The notes under the pieces were generated by a model. The model ran no database searches and was not told the origin of the DNA. It saw only the letters and a program-made list of their open reading frames with translations. 64,000 nt of DNA from Sulfuricella denitrificans (lineage in GTDB: Bacteria; Pseudomonadota; Gammaproteobacteria; Burkholderiales; Sulfuricellaceae), in contig NSJJ01000017.1 in assembly GCA_002632355.1 (NCBI GenBank), positions 1 to 64,000 on the forward strand, written 5' to 3'. This document shows positions 1 through 6,461 of the stretch, in pieces. A program made the translations under genes and the position numbers. Positions within the stretch are counted from its first letter, which is position 1. Each line of letters begins with the position of its first letter.

Positions 1-53
1 ACGCAGAAATCACCGGCGGCTGAAAGCCGTCCGCGTGGATTGACGGGTTATGC
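1..53 (+). repeat. attC recombination site, 5' part cut by window edge
   Basis: The right arm of an attC ends in the core GTTATGC at 47-53, preceded by TGACGG as in the sites ending at 3251 and 3599. An inner GGCGGCTGAAAGCCGTCC hairpin is visible. The R'' half lies left of the window. It closes an upstream cassette and so shows that the array continues leftward. Confidence 0.8.
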
Positions 54-82
54 CACTGGTTGAAAATATTTTGAAAAAGGTA

Positions 83-111
83 TTGACTTTAATCTGATTG
101 CGGTATATACT
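83..111 (+). promoter_or_regulatory. sigma70-type promoter inside cassette A
   Basis: TTGACT (83-88) and TATACT (106-111) are separated by exactly 17 bases, a near-consensus sigma70 promoter. It lies 48 bases upstream of the first ORF of the cassette. The -10 overlaps the short palindrome GTATATAC, which could be an operator. Most integron cassettes lack their own promoter, so this one may be expressed independently of position in the array. Confidence 0.65.
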
Positions 112-158
112 TTAATCATGGTGAGGGAACGGCCCGAACCGCAAACCGGAGAAACAAA

Positions 159-308
159 ATGAACAAATTTGCCAGCCAACAAGATTACGCAAACATCGAA
201 GCGGTGAAAGAAGAATACCCCAGTGCAGCCGAGATCGTAGAAGTGGACGGCGGCTGGATGGTGTTTGACACCGTGACCGACGCAGAAACGTGGCGCAACC
301 AAGAGTGA
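159..308 (+). CDS. Small conserved-type cassette protein, 49 aa
   Basis: This ORF is too short for the supplied track. It starts at ATG 159 with GGAG seven bases upstream and encodes 49 mostly acidic residues including VEVDGGWMVFDTVTD and a WRNQE end. No function is recognised. It is the first gene of cassette A, directly behind a good promoter, and its stop overlaps the GTG start of the next ORF, so the two are probably translationally coupled. The pairing with a ribbon-helix-helix-like protein and the private promoter recall toxin-antitoxin cassettes, but neither protein shows a known toxin motif, so that reading is speculation. Confidence 0.6.
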   Translation: MNKFASQQDYANIEAVKEEYPSAAEIVEVDGGWMVFDTVTDAETWRNQE

Positions 309-484
309 TAGGCGGAAAGCGAGAAGGGGCAGGGCGAAAGCCCTCCCCGCCAGAACTGCTAAAGGTTCCGGTTTCGATTAAGTTACCGCGATGGCTGATT
401 GAGTGGATGGATTCACAGCCGGAAAGCCGCGCAGTGCTGATTGAAAACGCAATACGGAAGCAGCACAAATTGAAACCGCCCTAA
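305..484 (+). CDS. Ribbon-helix-helix-like small DNA-binding protein, 59 aa
   Basis: The ORF track starts this frame at GTG 290, but GTG 305 overlaps the upstream stop as GTGA and fits coupling better. After a basic, Pro-rich head (GKREGAGRKPSPP) comes VPVSIKLPRWLIEWMD and then SRAVLIENAIR. This is the strand-helix-helix pattern of MetJ/Arc-type antitoxins and regulators. The stop lies three bases before the R'' core of the attC at 488, as expected for a cassette gene. It probably binds DNA, possibly the palindromic -10 of its own promoter. The partner protein is of unknown function. Confidence 0.6.
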   Translation: MIGGKREGAGRKPSPPELLKVPVSIKLPRWLIEWMDSQPESRAVLIENAIRKQHKLKPP

Positions 485-487
485 GGG

Positions 488-571
488 GCATAACGATGAG
501 GTCAGCAGCGGCGTGACCATCCTCGAAAAAAGCGCCTGAGTAACACCGTCTGCTGCACCGTAGGGTTGGGC
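488..571 (+). repeat. attC site closing cassette A
   Basis: R'' GCATAAC (488-494) and R' GTTGGGC (565-571) flank an imperfect palindrome with CAGCAG/CTGCTG arms and a loop of about 20 bases. It is 84 bases long, the longest attC here. The recombination point is expected after G565. Confidence 0.75.
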
Positions 572-598
572 GGCAACTTAACTACAAGGAGAATGACC

Positions 599-889
599 AT
601 GAGCAATTGCGAACTCTGTGGCGAACCGATGCCTGAAGGTGAAGAAATGTTCAAGTACCACGGATACAGCGGAGACTGCCCAAAGCCGCCATTACCGAAA
701 CCAAAGCAGAAGATACCCGGATTGATTGCCGCTGCCGCATACGCGGACAACAAGAAGGTATCAATGCTTTTTTATACAGCGGAACAGGCACATGCTTTCG
801 TTGCTGGCATAGATGCTGATGAGCCGCCTAACAACGAGGTAAGGGGTGGCGCTTCAGCGCCGTCCAGCGACAAACGGGAGCGGCCTTGA
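599..889 (+). CDS. Cassette B hypothetical protein, 96 aa, with CxxC pair
   Basis: The track begins at TTG 566, but AAGGAG at 586-591 places the start at ATG 599 (ATG 593 is too close to it). The protein opens with SNCELCGEPMPEGEE and has a later cysteine in YSGDCPKPP, suggesting a small zinc-knuckle-like head. A Pro/Lys linker and a helical stretch (LFYTAEQAHAFVAGID) follow. The last about 20 residues are read from the attC site itself, common in cassette genes. No family is recognised; cassette context only. Confidence 0.55.
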   Translation: MSNCELCGEPMPEGEEMFKYHGYSGDCPKPPLPKPKQKIPGLIAAAAYADNKKVSMLFYTAEQAHAFVAGIDADEPPNNEVRGGASAPSSDKRERP

Positions 890-903
890 CCGCTTTGTTA
901 GAT
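826..903 (+). repeat. attC site closing cassette B
   Basis: R'' GCCTAAC (826-832) and R' GTTAGAT (897-903) bound a 78-base palindromic site with an inner GGCGCTTCAGCGCC hairpin. The GTTAGATGC end is the classical form seen in many resistance cassettes and fixes the array orientation as left to right. Confidence 0.85.
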
Positions 904-921
904 GCCGGAACCGGAGGCACG

Positions 922-2040
922 ATGATTGCTGCACTGTATGTTGAAACCGATGGCGCTTACTTTGGCATTGACGGTGTGGAACCGTGGGACGAAGCTAAGG
1001 ATGCTAGGCGCTACAGTGGAACGCTGCCAGTGGTGGCGCACCCGCCATGCCAGCGATGGGGGAAGTTTTGGGCGGGACAACCGCTATGGATTGCAAGAAC
1101 CGGAGAGCGGAAGAAAAAAGGCGATGACGGAGGATGTTTTGCTGCGGCGCTGGAAAGTGTGCGGAAGGTTGGCGGGGTGCTTGAGCACCCTTGGGGCAGC
1201 CACGCATGGCCGCATTTTGGGCTTGCCGTGCCGCCACGATCTGGCGGATGGATAAAGGCTGACGATTGCGGCGGCTGGACATGTTGCGTGGAGCAGGGGC
1301 GATACGGCCACTATGCCCGCAAGCCGACACTGCTTTATGCGGTTGGGGTGGAATTGCCTGAGCTTCGGTGGGGCAAGAGCAACCCGGTTTTTCCGCAGTG
1401 GGCGATTGATAAATACGGGGTTGAGAAGTGCAAGCGGGCTGGTGAACTGGCATTCAAGGGCGGCGGCACCAACAGCACGCCGAGAATCCACACGCCGCCC
1501 GAGTTTCGGGATTTGCTGCTGGCTATTGCCAGGAGCACGAACAAGGCATCTAACGTAGAAGTGAGCGGCCTGCGCGGCTTTTCGCGCAGGTCCGCTCGAC
1601 TGCCGGGTTGGGGGGCGGGGCAAGAACACTCATTGGCTTTTCACCTCATCTCGGTCGGGAAGGCGCGGAAGGCGGTTGTAGTGCCGCAGGAGCAGCGCGA
1701 TTGCGATAACCGCCACAAGACCAAAGAAGCAGAAAAACGCAAACGCAACGCCCGACCAAACGGAGGCGCGCTCAGCGGACCAAGATCCAGCGGCGTTAAG
1801 CCAAGCGTAGGAATAGGCAGACAACAAGCCGTAGCCAGCAGCAAGCGGCGCAAGAAGCGCGCTTACCCAAAGGAGCCGCAATCGCGCGCGCGGGGAGAGG
1901 AAGAATGTTGCTCTTGGGCGCCGTGTTTGGCGCCATGCTTCCCAGCGGGCATTTGCTTCGGCAACAGCAGACCACTGCGCTGTACCAATGAGACCGGCGA
2001 CCAGAACGCCCAGAACGGTGCCGTTCGGAACGTACCATGA
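922..2040 (+). CDS. Cassette C protein with PPCQ motif; ORF reads through attC into cassette D
   Basis: ATG 922 has GGAGG at 913-917. The first about 210 residues look like a real protein: a PVVAHPPCQRWG segment, VGGVLEHPWGSHAW, and a later PPEFRDLLLAIA. The PPCQ and LEHP pieces loosely recall the PCQ and ENP motifs of cytosine-5 methyltransferases, but the rest does not match and I do not assign activity. No in-frame stop occurs before the attC (1548-1613), so the frame runs on through the site and about 430 bases antisense to the gene of cassette D. That tail is low-complexity and basic and is probably not native. If the next cassette began with TTAG, as cassette C itself does, the stop would form at the junction. 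Confidence 0.5.
   Translation: MIAALYVETDGAYFGIDGVEPWDEAKDARRYSGTLPVVAHPPCQRWGKFWAGQPLWIARTGERKKKGDDGGCFAAALESVRKVGGVLEHPWGSHAWPHFGLAVPPRSGGWIKADDCGGWTCCVEQGRYGHYARKPTLLYAVGVELPELRWGKSNPVFPQWAIDKYGVEKCKRAGELAFKGGGTNSTPRIHTPPEFRDLLLAIARSTNKASNVEVSGLRGFSRRSARLPGWGAGQEHSLAFHLISVGKARKAVVVPQEQRDCDNRHKTKEAEKRKRNARPNGGALSGPRSSGVKPSVGIGRQQAVASSKRRKKRAYPKEPQSRARGEEECCSWAPCLAPCFPAGICFGNSRPLRCTNETGDQNAQNGAVRNVP
1548..1613 (+). repeat. attC site closing cassette C
   Basis: A perfect R'' ATCTAAC (1548-1554) and R' GTTGGGG (1607-1613) bound a 66-base site. The stem GAGCGGCCTGCGCG pairs with CGCGCAGGTCCGCTC around GCTTTT. Its flanks (AACGTAGAAGTGAG, CTCGACTGCCGGGTT) are shared with the solitary attC at 48885. 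Confidence 0.85.
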
Positions 2041-2199
2041 GAGAAGAGAGAGCGGGAGCCCCGTGATCGTAAGGCAGAGATGGGTAGAGACACCGTACTC
2101 GCCGTGACCACTGAAGAAGTTGCCGAGAGCCGCGATTGCGAGCAACGCAACAGCCCAAGCTCCATACCACTTTGCAATCTTCTTCGCGGCGCGATGCAC
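1630..2199 (-). CDS. Cassette D membrane protein, 189 aa, opposite to array direction
   Basis: The start is GTG 2199, with a G-rich stretch upstream inside the attC R'' region. Hydrophobic segments follow: AWAVALLAIAALGNFF, a SLLSWYVPNGTVLGVLVAGLIG region, LLWVSALLAPLAAGYGLL and VAFAFFCFFGLVAVIAIALLL. This gives about four or five membrane spans with charged loops. The hydrophobic periodicity makes this strand the credible coding strand of the cassette. No family is recognised. It points against the array, so it would need its own promoter rather than readthrough from an attI-side promoter. Confidence 0.6.
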   Translation of the reverse strand: MHRAAKKIAKWYGAWAVALLAIAALGNFFSGHGEYGVSTHLCLTITGLPLSLLSWYVPNGTVLGVLVAGLIGTAQWSAVAEANARWEAWRQTRRPRATFFLSPRARLRLLWVSALLAPLAAGYGLLSAYSYAWLNAAGSWSAERASVWSGVAFAFFCFFGLVAVIAIALLLRHYNRLPRLPDRDEVKSQ

Positions 2200-2206
2200 T
2201 CAAGCC

Positions 2207-2271
2207 CCCCAACGTGTAGCTAAGGGGCCGCGCGGCTTTTCGCGCGGTCCCGCTTGAGCGATGGGTTGTGC
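2207..2271 (+). repeat. attC site closing cassette D
   Basis: R'' CCCCAAC (2207-2213, first base off consensus) and R' GTTGTGC (2265-2271) bound a 65-base site with the hairpin GGGGCCGCGCG/CGCGCGGTCCC. It is followed at once by CCCAACGGGTTGG, a small extra core-like inverted pair that may be a trace of an earlier recombination. Confidence 0.75.
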
Positions 2272-2291
2272 CCAACGGGTTGGAGAGTGAG

Positions 2292-2825
2292 ATGGGATTG
2301 AGTGCGCACCAGAAGAATGGCGGACACGACGAATGGCTGACGCCACCCGAGATCCTGCGGGCGCTCGGAGCGTTTGACCTCGACCCGTGCGCCCCGGTTG
2401 TGCGACCGTGGGAAACAGCGGCCAAGCATTACACGGTGCAGGACGACGGCCTGGCGCAACCGTGGCCGGCCGGGGCGCGGGTGTGGTGCAACCCGCCCTT
2501 CGGACGCGAGGCGGTGAAGTGGCTGCGGAAGATGCGCGACCACGGAAACGGGGTTGCTTTGATTCCGGCGCGGACGGAAACCGCGATGTTCTACGAAACG
2601 GTATGGGGAGCGGCAGACGGCGTGCTGTTCATCAAGGGGCGCCCGCACTTTCACTACGTGGACGGACGGCGGGCGGATTTCAACAGCGGCGCACCAATTG
2701 CCTTGGTGGCCTACGGACGCCAGAACCTGGACGCACTCAGGCAAAGCGGCCTCGGCTTCGTGGTAGTGGGGCACAACGACACAGGTAACGGGCCGAGCGG
2801 CGATAGCCGCGAAGGTCCGCGTTGA
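2292..2825 (+). CDS. Phage-type DNA N6-adenine methyltransferase (Dam-like), cassette E
   Basis: The track starts at TTG 2268; ATG 2292 with GGAG at 2282-2285 is preferred, giving 177 aa. DEWLTPPEIL near the N-terminus, FDLDPCA at about residues 28-34 and WCNPPFG at about 65-71 are the hallmarks of the phage N6-adenine methyltransferase family. The NPPF is the catalytic motif, with target flipping and SAM binding expected from family knowledge. No restriction partner is in the cassette, so it would be an orphan methylase modifying island or host DNA. The last about 15 codons and the stop (TGA in the conserved TTGACCGC) come from the attC. Confidence 0.85.
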   Translation: MGLSAHQKNGGHDEWLTPPEILRALGAFDLDPCAPVVRPWETAAKHYTVQDDGLAQPWPAGARVWCNPPFGREAVKWLRKMRDHGNGVALIPARTETAMFYETVWGAADGVLFIKGRPHFHYVDGRRADFNSGAPIALVAYGRQNLDALRQSGLGFVVVGHNDTGNGPSGDSREGPR

Positions 2826-2839
2826 CCGCCTTGTTGGGC
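2771..2839 (+). repeat. attC site closing cassette E
   Basis: R'' GCACAAC (2771-2777) and R' GTTGGGC (2833-2839) bound a 69-base site. The distal arm TTGACCGCCTTGTTGGGC closely resembles the arm of the site ending at 903. It overlaps the 3' end of the methyltransferase gene. Confidence 0.8.
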
Positions 2840-2861
2840 GGCATTTTGAATGGAGATTGAG

Positions 2862-3278
2862 ATGACAGAGAGAAGCCACAGGCCGACCGCTGAATACCGC
2901 TACTGGCTGTATGACCCGGAAGGCGACGGGATGACCTATTACCGTACCGCCGAAGCACGCGACAGCGAAGCGCAGAAAGCGATTGACTGCTATCTGGAGG
3001 ACGGCTGGGCGCCAGAAGTTGAATTTGTCTCTGCGGGCGAAGTGACGCACTGCGCACAAGTGCTGGACAAGACCATGCGCCCCGCCGGTGAAGACCTTGA
3101 CGACGAAGGATGCGACGGCGACGGCATGTATTGGCCGGAAGGTATGGCGTGGCGCGGAAACTATGCGCTGGAGCCATTGCCGCCCAACGCAGAAGTGAGG
3201 GGCGATGCGCCGCTTTATGGCGCAGCGTCCCTCTCGACTGACGGGTTATGCGGATCAGTTGAAACGAAGAAAGGATAG
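2862..3278 (+). CDS. Cassette F hypothetical protein, 138 aa, reading across the cassette junction
   Basis: ATG 2862 has GGAG six bases upstream (ATG 2850 is also in frame). The protein is acidic, with EYRYWLYDPEGDGMTYY, an EDGWAPEVEFVSAGE segment and a DLDDEGCDGDGMYWPEG patch; no catalytic motif is recognised. It resembles the small accessory proteins common in phages, by feel rather than by a named family. Reading continues through the whole attC and over the junction into cassette G, stopping three bases before that cassette's ATG. Its last about 30 residues therefore depend on the cassette arrangement, and the two genes could be translationally coupled. Confidence 0.6.
   Translation: MTERSHRPTAEYRYWLYDPEGDGMTYYRTAEARDSEAQKAIDCYLEDGWAPEVEFVSAGEVTHCAQVLDKTMRPAGEDLDDEGCDGDGMYWPEGMAWRGNYALEPLPPNAEVRGDAPLYGAASLSTDGLCGSVETKKG
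3182..3251 (+). repeat. attC site closing cassette F
   Basis: R'' GCCCAAC (3182-3188) and R' GTTATGC (3245-3251) bound a 70-base site with stem GAGGGGCGATGCGCC against GGCGCAGCGTCCCTC. The AACGCAGAAGTGAGGGGC flank is shared with the site at 1548 and the solitary one at 48885. Confidence 0.85.
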
Positions 3279-3281
3279 GGC

Positions 3282-3548
3282 ATGGAAACGAAACTATGGG
3301 CGTTGTTGATTCCGGGGCCGGATGACGTGTGGGCGATGCCGAGCAAAGAAGCGGCCGAGGAAGCGGCGGCAAAGCACAACAAGGCGATTGAAACCGGCTT
3401 GCTGGCTGAACGCTTCTGTGTGCCAAAAGAGGCCGTGCAAGCGCGGGTGATCGAGTGGCCGTACAGCGCGGAGGAACATGCCGAGGCGATGGAAAGCGGA
3501 GAGCCAGACGTGTTTGATGGCTACGACACCGAGACGCATAACGCTTGA
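3282..3548 (+). CDS. Cassette G hypothetical protein, 88 aa
   Basis: ATG 3282 has AGGA six bases upstream. The 88-aa product starts METKLWALLIPGPDDVWAM and has an Ala/Glu-rich helix (KEAAEEAAAKHNKAIE), then a VIEWPYSAEEHAEAM segment. It looks like a small soluble alpha/beta protein; no family is recognised. The stop lies four bases past the R'' core of the attC at 3536. The upstream cassette ORF ends three bases before this start, so reinitiation is possible. Confidence 0.6.
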   Translation: METKLWALLIPGPDDVWAMPSKEAAEEAAAKHNKAIETGLLAERFCVPKEAVQARVIEWPYSAEEHAEAMESGEPDVFDGYDTETHNA

Positions 3549-3599
3549 ATTCACAGGCGGGCGGCTTTATCGCCCGTCCGGTGGAATGACGGGTTATGC
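3536..3599 (+). repeat. attC site closing cassette G
   Basis: R'' GCATAAC (3536-3542) and R' GTTATGC (3593-3599) are exact reverse complements, bounding a 64-base site with GGGCGG/CCGTCC arms around CTTTATCG. The right arm GGATTGACGGG-like sequence is close to the partial site at the window start. Confidence 0.85.
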
Positions 3600-3623
3600 C
3601 ACGGTGACAACTTGGAGAGAACG

Positions 3624-3827
3624 ATGGACGCAAAAACGAAGCGCAAGCACCTGAACGATTACTCACACGCCCACCGCGACATTGAACTGACACAGATCGC
3701 AATCGACCTCATGGAGCGTGTTGGCAACTCGGAGACTATCGTGAAGGCACTGAAGAAAAAGCGGCATGCGCACCTTCGCAGGATGGACGCGGCGGCAGCA
3801 AAACTAGGCGCACCGTATGGGGCATAA
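3624..3827 (+). CDS. Cassette H hypothetical protein, 67 aa, helical and basic
   Basis: The track starts at TTG 3612; ATG 3624 with GGAG at 3614-3617 is preferred. The product is Lys/His/Arg-rich and probably all-helical (DIELTQIAIDLMERVGNSETIVKAL, then KKKRHAHLRRMDAAAAKL). It might bind nucleic acid, but this is only a charge argument. The TAA stop is part of the GCATAAC core at 3822-3828. This is the last cassette before intI. Confidence 0.55.
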   Translation: MDAKTKRKHLNDYSHAHRDIELTQIAIDLMERVGNSETIVKALKKKRHAHLRRMDAAAAKLGAPYGA

Positions 3828-3861
3828 CTTAAATTTAACGACACCCACTGACGCCTAATTC
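3822..3861 (+). other. Half attC / array-intI junction
   Basis: An R''-type GCATAAC core (3822-3828) is present, but no GTTRRRY partner or palindromic body follows. Instead 33 AT-rich then mixed bases lead straight into the intI reading frame. I see no attI-like pair of integrase sites, no LexA-type operator and no ribosome binding site for intI here. It looks like a rearrangement scar where the last attC and the original intI leader were lost. Confidence 0.5.
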
Positions 3862-4941
3862 TTGACCACTGAACGGAGGGCCGCGAAAATACTAGTCATC
3901 GACCAAACAAACGCGACACAAGCAGCCGCGTTACACGACACGACACGTCAGCAGCCTAAGCTGCTCGACCGCATGCGCGCGGCCATCCGCACCAGGCACT
4001 ACAGCCTGCGCACCGAGCAAAACTATATTCACTGGGCGAAGCGCTTCATCTACTGGCACGACAAGCGCCACCCGGCAGACATGGGCGCACCTGAGGTCGA
4101 AGCCTTCCTATCTGCCCTGGCCACCGAGCGCAACGTCAGCGCCAGCACACAGAACCAGGCCATGCACGCCATCCTGTTTCTCTACAAGGACGTGCTCGGT
4201 GTGGATCTGCCATGGCTGGATGGAATCACCCGTGCGAAAGTATCCAAGCGCCTGCCGGTCGTTCTCACCCAGCGCGAAATCCAGTCCCTGCTACGCCACG
4301 TCAGCGGCACGAATGGCCTGGTCATCAAACTGCTGTACGGAACCGGCATGCGCCTGCTGGAATGCCTGCGGATGCGCATCAAGGATCTCGACATCGAGCG
4401 CGGCCAGATCACCATCCGCGAAGGAAAAGGCAACAAGGATCGCGTCACCATGCTTCCTGCCAGTCTGGCGGATGAACTGCGCGACCATCTGATCGCACGC
4501 AGGCGCCTGCGCGACCATCTGATCGCACGCAGGCGCCTGCACGACATCGATCTGGCCACCGGCCACGCGGATGTCGAACTACCTGACGCAATCGAGCGCA
4601 AATACCCGCGCGCGGCATCGGAATGGGCCTGGCAATACCTGTTCTGCGCGCCCGGCTACAGCACCGACCCACGAACCGGCGCCTATCGCCGCCACCACTG
4701 GAACGAACGAAACATCCAGCGCGCTGTGAGAGCGGCTGCAGAGTCCGCTGGCATCGGAAAACAGGTCCACCCGCACGCGTTGCGCCACTCATTCGCCACG
4801 CACCTGCTGGAAAGCGGATACGACATCCGCACGGTGCAGGAGTTGCTGGGACATTCTGATGTGTCAACGACGATGATTTACACCCATGTGCTGAACCGTG
4901 GCGGGCATGGCGTGATGAGTCCGCTGGATAGAATCATCTAA
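3862..4941 (+). CDS. intI: Integron integrase (tyrosine recombinase)
   Basis: This enzyme recombines attI and attC sites. It matches IntI proteins along its length: [13 protein letters not shown] and [18 protein letters not shown] in the N-terminal core-binding domain, [11 protein letters not shown] (catalytic Arg), GKGNKDR (Lys), [12 protein letters not shown] (His-x-x-Arg), [14 protein letters not shown] (His and nucleophilic Tyr). The IntI-specific insert [19 protein letters not shown] is present and separates it from XerC/D. All catalytic residues are intact. Its length (359 aa) exceeds the usual 320-340 partly through a 10-residue duplication. The TTG 3862 start is uncertain: no Shine-Dalgarno precedes it, and ATG 3973 would cut conserved residues. 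It points the same way as the cassettes, unlike normal integrons, where intI diverges. It is probably cotranscribed with the alpA-like gene 10 bases downstream. Confidence 0.93.
4477..4540 (+). repeat. 30-bp tandem duplication inside intI
   Basis: Bases 4481-4510 and 4511-4540 are identical, and the 30-base period extends back to 4477. It duplicates [10 protein letters not shown] in frame. Removing one copy restores the alignment with IntI1 between LPASLADEL and the [12 protein letters not shown] insert. The lack of any difference between copies suggests a recent slippage event or selection for identity. Confidence 0.95.
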
Positions 4942-4951
4942 GGAGAGAATC

Positions 4952-5227
4952 TTGAACACCGAAACCGCCATCATCGAGCGCCTGGACGCACTCATTTCCG
5001 CCATGAAGATGAACAGCATCCCATCTGACCGGCGCCTGTGGGACGCGGACTCCATTGCAGCCTACCTGTCTGTGTCCGTGCCGACCGTCCTGAACCGCTA
5101 CGCCTGCCGACCGGATTTCCCTGCCGCCATCCGGCTGCCGACCGCAGGCTCACGTGGAACACCGCGCTGGAACGCCAGCGAGATCATGGAATGGGCCGCC
5201 AGATACCAGGTGAAGAAACGTGCTTAA
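4952..5227 (+). CDS. AlpA-family helix-turn-helix regulator/excisionase, 91 aa
   Basis: TTG 4952 follows a strong AGGAG at 4942-4946, ten bases after the intI stop. The body RLWDADSIAAYLSVSVPTVLNR and a TPRWNASEIMEWAAR end match the AlpA/MerR-like winged helix used by prophages and islands as integrase activator or excision factor. The stop overlaps the stop of the convergent integrase gene by a few bases. From context it probably controls directionality of the tRNA-Leu integrase, and its likely cotranscription with intI would tie the two recombination systems together. Confidence 0.8.
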   Translation: MNTETAIIERLDALISAMKMNSIPSDRRLWDADSIAAYLSVSVPTVLNRYACRPDFPAAIRLPTAGSRGTPRWNASEIMEWAARYQVKKRA

Positions 5228-6219
5228 TCCAGCATCCCGGCCACATCGCTCATGTTCGGCGCGTAATACGTCGCCAGCAGAATGCGCAGATCGCGGTGTC
5301 CGCTGATCTTGGCAAGCGTCATCACATCCACCTTCGCCGCCATGCGCGTCAGTGCCTCGCGCCTGGAGTCATGAAAATGCAGCCCTTCAATCAGCGCCCG
5401 GTCGCGCGCCTTCCTGAATAGCGTGTCCAGGCTCTCCGCCTTCAGCGCAAAAACCGACTCCGCATCGATTCCCTGCAGCTGCAGCAGAATCCGGATCGCC
5501 TCTTTCGACATCGGCACATCCCGCGAATAGCCGTTTTTCGTCTTCGGCAGATGCACCACGCGCCGATCCAGATCCACGTCAGACCACTTCATTCCGCAAA
5601 TCTCGCCCGCCCGCATTGCCGTCTCGATAGCGAACAGCAGCGCAGCACCCGCGCGCGACTGCGCAGTGATCGGGATCACATCATAATCATAGCCGGACGC
5701 GAACAGAATCCGCTCGACCTCATCGTCTGAAATCCGCCGCGCACGAGGCTTGTGCGGCTCCGGCTTAGTCACGCCTTGCATCGGGTGGACATATAGCCAG
5801 CGCCATTCCTTGATCGCCACCTGGCATGCGTGGCCAAGCGTGGACCACTCGCGCAGCACAGACGCCGCAGAGACGGAAGCCAGACGGCGATCCCGCCAGG
5901 AAGCGAAATGCTCCGCATCGATATCATCCAGGCGAACGGACACCAGCGGGTCGGCGCCATCGATCATCCGCTGCAGCCGCAAACGCTCCGGACGCTCACC
6001 GCGCTTGGTCGGCAGCACCTCGCGGATATAGCGCGCCAGTAGATCCCCGAAAGTTTTATCTGGTATCATCCCCGCACGACGCGCAGAAATCTCGTGCTCA
6101 TGCCGAGCAGCCCAGGCTTCCGCCTCGGCCTTGGTCCGGAAAACCGCCGACGCACTCACCCCGCCCTTACGAACGCGAGCGCGCCAGCCCCCAGATTCCT
6201 GCTTCTTGATCGACGCCAT
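5224..6219 (-). CDS. Phage/island-type tyrosine integrase
   Basis: This is a site-specific recombinase expected to integrate the island at tRNA-Leu. ATG 6219 gives 331 aa; the track's longer TTG start at 6240 is less likely. The N-terminus has the arm-binding fold (GGWRARVRKGGVSASAVFRTKAEAEAWAARHE). A SAM-like core-binding domain follows, then the catalytic domain with AMRAGEICGMKW (Arg), KTKNGYSRDVP (Lys), HFHDSRREALTRMA (His-x-x-Arg) and GHRDLRILLATYY (His, Tyr). All catalytic positions are present, so it looks functional. It starts about 160 bases from the tRNA 3' end and runs away from it, the standard island layout. Confidence 0.93.
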   Translation of the reverse strand: MASIKKQESGGWRARVRKGGVSASAVFRTKAEAEAWAARHEHEISARRAGMIPDKTFGDLLARYIREVLPTKRGERPERLRLQRMIDGADPLVSVRLDDIDAEHFASWRDRRLASVSAASVLREWSTLGHACQVAIKEWRWLYVHPMQGVTKPEPHKPRARRISDDEVERILFASGYDYDVIPITAQSRAGAALLFAIETAMRAGEICGMKWSDVDLDRRVVHLPKTKNGYSRDVPMSKEAIRILLQLQGIDAESVFALKAESLDTLFRKARDRALIEGLHFHDSRREALTRMAAKVDVMTLAKISGHRDLRILLATYYAPNMSDVAGMLD

Positions 6220-6375
6220 TTCTGTCCAATCGCTGTCCAAATCCTGTCCACTAGCATGCTATAAGTTGCAGTTTTTTGCTAGACGTTGATGTTTTCTGGT
6301 GGACCAGAAAACGGCCAGAGATTGGCCATTTATAAGGCTTTGAGGTGATTTTTGGTTATTTAATAAAATAGGTGG

Positions 6376-6461
6376 TGGTGCGAAAGGAGAGACTCGAACT
6401 CTCACGGGGGTTGCCCGCTGGAACCTAAATCCAGTGCGTCTACCAATTCCGCCACTTTCGC
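6376..6461 (-). tRNA. tRNA-Leu(UAG)
   Basis: The reverse strand reads GCGAAAG...CTTTCGC acceptor arms, a long variable arm (GCGGGCAACCCCCGT), TTCGAGTC in the T loop and an encoded CCA at 6376-6378. The anticodon loop TTTAGGT gives anticodon UAG. It is the apparent insertion site of the island; the 3' end remains complete. Confidence 0.95.

Follow-up and report, generated by a model that had tools for sequence, protein, structure and literature searches.

A mobile phage and integron module with a constant leader, a ribbon-helix-helix-like gene and exchangeable cargo, probably organized like an acr-aca operon

The window (the whole 64,000-nucleotide stretch of Sulfuricella denitrificans DNA analyzed here) begins with a complete integron cassette, cassette A (positions 1..493), that carries two small genes behind their own promoter. 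We consider it probable that this cassette belongs to a mobile phage module whose mode of operation resembles that of an acr-aca operon, and we infer an anti-defense role for its cargo. In this module, which occurs in phages and integrons and appears to be previously undescribed, the promoter and a gene for a small, putative DNA-binding protein stay constant, and the intervening gene is replaced from unit to unit.

Both genes of cassette A are on the + strand. The first, ORF1 (159..308), is the variable cargo gene and encodes a 49-aa acidic protein (pI 4.1); the second, ORF2 (305..484), encodes a 59-aa ribbon-helix-helix (RHH)-like protein that is the conserved member of the unit and its likely autoregulator. 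We place the start of ORF2 at GTG 305-307 instead of the listed GTG 290 because its homologs begin MxGGKREGAGRKP; with this start, ORF2 overlaps the ORF1 stop codon (TGA 306-308) by 4 nt, confirming the stop-start overlap described in the initial annotation. ORF2 is carried by 23 distinct loci in metagenomic phage contigs, phage-borne integrons, two MAGs (one Methylococcaceae and one Zoogloea), and a Pseudomonas plasmid, and ORF2 has relatives in two Pseudomonas plasmids; more distant matches in Klebsiella plasmids, at 40%, were left out of this set. Among 399 genomes of the host's order, ORF2 is found in the host alone; judged by this distribution, the ORF2 family is mobile and environmental.

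The structural model of ORF2 has an unpaired N-terminal arm followed by helices at 29-36 and 42-54. The model fits the RHH layout, including its helix pair; in RHH proteins the arm is paired as a strand only once the dimer has formed. The profile matches are weak and below cut-offs (RHH_1 at 0.042, CopG also weak, and, for one ORF2 relative, the BrnA antitoxin at E = 0.00066), and no HTH family matches ORF2. Because this profile support is weak, the assignment of ORF2 as an RHH protein with predicted DNA binding is likely, not proven; together, the profiles and the helix-pair model support the RHH-like character that the initial annotation had given the second ORF. The Foldseek matches of ORF2 are insignificant (the best is AcrIE10 at E = 3.9), and we do not count them as evidence.

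A sigma-70 promoter, TTGACT-N17-TATACT (83..111, + strand; -35 at 83-88 and -10 at 106-111), precedes ORF1, as the initial annotation had proposed from the sequence. On its own, a match to the promoter consensus is weak evidence (the promoter scan found two consensus-type sites in 3 kb vs 0.8 expected in shuffles); conservation of the promoter and leader across loci is the decisive test against chance. A leader of ~100 bp recurs upstream of ORF1, composed of an AT-rich element, TTGAC-N17-TATACT/TAGACT, a dyad at the -10, ATTCA, a hairpin, and a Shine-Dalgarno sequence; the AT-rich, UP-element-like sequence in the window, ATATTTTGAAAAAGGTA (66..82, + strand), is kept in the alignment of 20 leaders. 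Using a leader profile that was built from nine loci and then applied to the remaining ORF2 loci, we find the same promoter and 5'-UTR leader at 20 of the 23 distinct loci; the match at L010 is weak (E = 0.003), and at three of the 23, all with ORF2 (L022, L033, and L060), the profile found no clear leader. In three leader-pattern scans that ignored ORF2, the strong matches have ORF2 downstream, except at L092 and at the second of the two leaders in L032. The constant partner of ORF2 is the promoter with its leader and not ORF1. The recurrence of leader and ORF2 also supports the initial description of cassette A as a self-promoted, translationally coupled two-gene cassette, that is, as a real unit.

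In L032 (1411-2464) two leaders are arranged in tandem, and the second precedes a cargo gene that lacks ORF2; this suggests that one regulator could serve both units. In L092 (695-764) a partial leader precedes an ORF of ~50 aa, again with no ORF2, and may be a relative under another regulator.

The cargo differs at almost every locus. In an all-against-all BLAST, the 20 ORF1s fall into 18 unrelated families of 49-307 aa. Their median pI is 4.17, compared with 6.74 for 121 background ORFs from the same contigs, a mechanical set not curated as genes (Mann-Whitney p = 1e-7). A homology search of both proteins, as suggested at the outset, yielded relatives of ORF2 and a named family for neither: ORF1 and ORF2 of the window have no Pfam or NCBIfam name, no significant Foldseek relative, and no relatives among cultured phages, and their sole match in PHROGs is a short one to the GAGRK motif. 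The ORF1 of the window is modeled as a compact beta-alpha-beta-beta-alpha fold (pLDDT 89 for the best model and 56-76 for the others). Two candidate relatives of ORF1 were rejected, L051 as a chance local match and L052 because it shares the motif EIVEVDGG within a longer protein. The unit was also sought in other integrons and plasmids; the leader and ORF2 recur there, and the window ORF1 does not recur as their constant partner.

A second reading, which we consider unlikely, is a moron-type phage module, likewise autoregulated, with mixed cargo (for host takeover, superinfection exclusion, or DNA metabolism) that is not specifically anti-defense. The only clear domain among the ORF1s is RadC, in the cargo of L024 (a RadC/JAB protein); the cargo also includes a 307-aa protein with no assigned function, and searches of family libraries assigned none of the ORF1s to a known family of anti-CRISPR or anti-restriction proteins, all of which would suit such a module. 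The acidity and small size of most of the cargo, the aca-like regulator, and the linked methyltransferase (vide infra) argue, indirectly, for counter-defense instead.

Self-promoted integron cassettes are often toxin-antitoxin (TA) systems (PMC11014356), and the initial annotation had accordingly suggested that cassette A is a TA module that stabilizes the array. In such a module the toxin gene would precede that for an RHH antitoxin (the brnTA or higBA order), and the module would stabilize the array or prophage. Cassette A resembles the type II TA systems with RHH antitoxins (BrnTA, ParDE, and CcdAB) in having two tightly coupled small genes with their own promoter, an RHH-like protein, and a palindromic sequence that is a candidate operator; the BrnA match of one ORF2 relative and a very weak match of the window ORF1 to HigB_toxin (E = 0.09) point in the same direction. 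TA toxins are conserved and bind the matching antitoxin. Because a TA system needs a conserved partner, the variability of ORF1 argues against this reading: in place of a conserved toxin, unrelated and mostly acidic proteins are paired with ORF2. In addition, one leader-ORF1 unit of L032 lacks ORF2, and the same ORF1 family, that of the L021 cargo, follows a leader in L032 and in the plasmid L103, and in other phages it stands alone, without any ORF2. We therefore consider a TA module improbable. The suggestion of array stabilization fares no better, given that many of the units are located in phages and not in arrays that would need stabilizing; the accompanying remark that neither protein has a known toxin motif holds, with no significant toxin-family match for any ORF1.

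Returning to the acr-aca-like reading, two elements of the leader are candidates for the site of regulation. The 5'-UTR hairpin, GGTGAGGG-AACGG-CCCGAACC (120..141, ends approximate; + strand), has the strongest support of any leader structure, as judged from covariation across 18 relatives: its score is 0.358, compared with 0.136 ± 0.029 in shuffles (none of 500 reaches it), although kinship among the leader sequences inflates this value to some extent. Control positions slid along the alignment all score ≤ 0.111, and 77% of the cells in the hairpin alignment are paired. The second element is an inverted repeat inside the core promoter, a dyad over the -10 that is GTATATAC in the window (103..110) and GTCTAGAC in other members. 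Positions 3 and 6 of the dyad are paired in 17 of the 20 leaders and change together (permutation p = 0.0001, a value that is also inflated to some extent by the relatedness of the sequences), so the proposal in the initial annotation that this palindrome is the operator for the RHH protein is plausible, with the dyad as a candidate ORF2 operator. That ORF2 is instead an RNA-binding or structural partner acting via the leader hairpin and no transcriptional repressor, with the dyad mere promoter sequence, is in our judgment very improbable: the strength of the hairpin covariation and the constraint of the right half of the dyad by the -10 hexamer would fit, but changes in the left half track those in the right, and RHH proteins typically bind DNA.

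In acr-aca operons the variable genes are followed by the regulator gene, and the core promoter contains an inverted repeat (PMC9410906). The unit described here shares this layout with the operons of Aca1-10: a variable small gene is first; a conserved gene for a small, predicted DNA-binding regulator, ORF2, is directly downstream and stop-start coupled (23 loci); the promoter is strong and has an inverted repeat in its core; and the cargo is exchanged around a constant regulator. We propose an autoregulated, exchangeable anti-defense module because this layout is that of acr-aca and not that of TA systems. The differences are that the regulator is RHH-like, whereas all of the Acas described in PMC9410906 are HTH proteins; that none of the cargo is a known Acr; that the leader contains a conserved, covarying hairpin; and that the units move as integron cassettes. 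Because the known Acas are HTH proteins and none of the ORF1s can be matched to a known anti-CRISPR, we label the module aca-like, not Aca. Early anti-defense genes share conserved regulatory sequence (PMC11065993), and the early anti-defense genes of archaeal viruses (SIRV2, Aca8) are similar to those described here in that many small genes without mutual relationship are preceded by the same conserved promoter region; in contrast, our module has a bacterial sigma-70 promoter, almost all of its units include the regulator, and a locus usually contains a single unit. Cas1 was not found in the host genome, whereas it is present in four of seven genus relatives; because of its absence from the host, restriction or another system would be as likely a target as CRISPR.

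The context of cassette A is a phage-borne integron. Its own attC is at the left and is cut by the contig start (1..52, - strand; R'' box truncated, GTTATGC box at the right end); the site is supported by its sequence and fold, and it matches the end of the attC at 3574-3602 at 93%. A second attC (488..571, - strand) separates cassette A from the next cassette, and in about 12 other loci the stop codon of ORF2 (TAA) is located inside the attC R'' box. Further along the array are a 219-aa cassette gene (904-1560) that matches the phage family phrog_12600 (E = 1.8e-69; no function assigned) and a cassette encoding a Dam-type DNA N6-adenine methyltransferase (2286..2825, + strand), which is another potential anti-restriction cargo. 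An attI-like junction, GCATAAC|TTAAATTTAACGACACC (3822..3861, - strand), adjoins the integron integrase gene intI (3862..4941, + strand); this is followed by the gene for an excisionase-like small DNA-binding protein (4952..5227, + strand) and by that for a phage tyrosine integrase (5224..6240, - strand), which adjoins tRNA-Leu (6376-6461). Thus, positions 1-6461 of the window contain a complete integron (array, attI-like site, and intI) within the end of a prophage. The viral contig L058 has the same gene order and attI-like junction, an 89% identical intI, and genes for a phage integrase and endolysin; in this contig the attI-proximal position is taken by the leader-ORF1-ORF2 cassette.

In the window, intI has ATA (3889-3893) in place of the ATG start of L058, so its start codon may be lost, and it contains a perfect 30-bp tandem duplication (4477-4536) that produces a 10-aa in-frame repeat; the function of the integrase may therefore be impaired. 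The extra bases of the attC sites are on the 3' arm of the + strand in the window and on the 5' arm in L053, the second integron of the genome; from this asymmetry, the direction of cassette A and its neighbors is the minus strand, away from intI, as is usual for attC sites. Despite this canonical polarity (488-3599), most of the cassette ORFs, including ORF2 and the Dam-type methyltransferase, are on the + strand, antisense to the direction of the cassettes; in the other integron (L053, contig C23), the ORFs run in the usual sense. Phage genomes that contain intI and cassettes flanked by attC, with DNA methyltransferases among the cargo, are also described in the available part of Qi et al. 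2023 (PMC9892861), which does not describe the leader-ORF2 family; in the present case, two elements have a related intI adjoining the phage integrase, and the cassette genes are oriented toward intI.

Contig C31 starts (C31:1) with an identical copy of 368-494, next to phage head genes. Because the copy is 127 bp, a length that suggests an assembly k-mer overlap, a whole second copy of cassette A is likely to exist. At the start of this contig (L004:1-160), an attI/attC-like half site separates the end of cassette A from phage gpW/portal-type genes. This proximity to head genes raised the possibility that ORF2 is a terminase small subunit; we rejected it, since a separate Terminase_2 gene is located further downstream in L024. 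The host genome has no member of the TerL family PF05876.

On the acr-aca-like reading, the conserved strong promoter would fire early, on phage entry or on cassette expression, and would drive a short bicistronic mRNA in which the gene for the exchangeable accessory protein is first; in the window this is the 49-aa acidic protein, which would most likely be an inhibitor of host defense. The conserved RHH protein, translated from the second gene by stop-start coupling, would bind the -10 dyad, and possibly, in the mRNA, the leader hairpin as well, and would turn off the operon once the cargo suffices. Cargo genes would be exchanged in the interval between leader and ORF2, both conserved, and entire units would travel as integron cassettes among phage-borne integrons, phage genomes, and plasmids.

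More tentatively, and with somewhat less than even confidence, we suggest that ORF2 represents a new RHH-type family of aca-like regulators with dual control by a DNA dyad and an RNA hairpin and that a large pool of acidic anti-defense proteins, traded by phages as integron cassettes, can be recognized by the leader and ORF2. If the proposal is true, the combination of hairpin and operator would provide a testable example of self-limitation at both the transcriptional and the translational level, the leader and ORF2 would be a handle for finding anti-defense genes in environmental phages, apart from the known Aca families, and prophage-borne integrons would be banks of counter-immunity cassettes. 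Defense genes have been reported from chromosomal integrons; the trade of counter-defense genes by phage integrons would be the mirror image.
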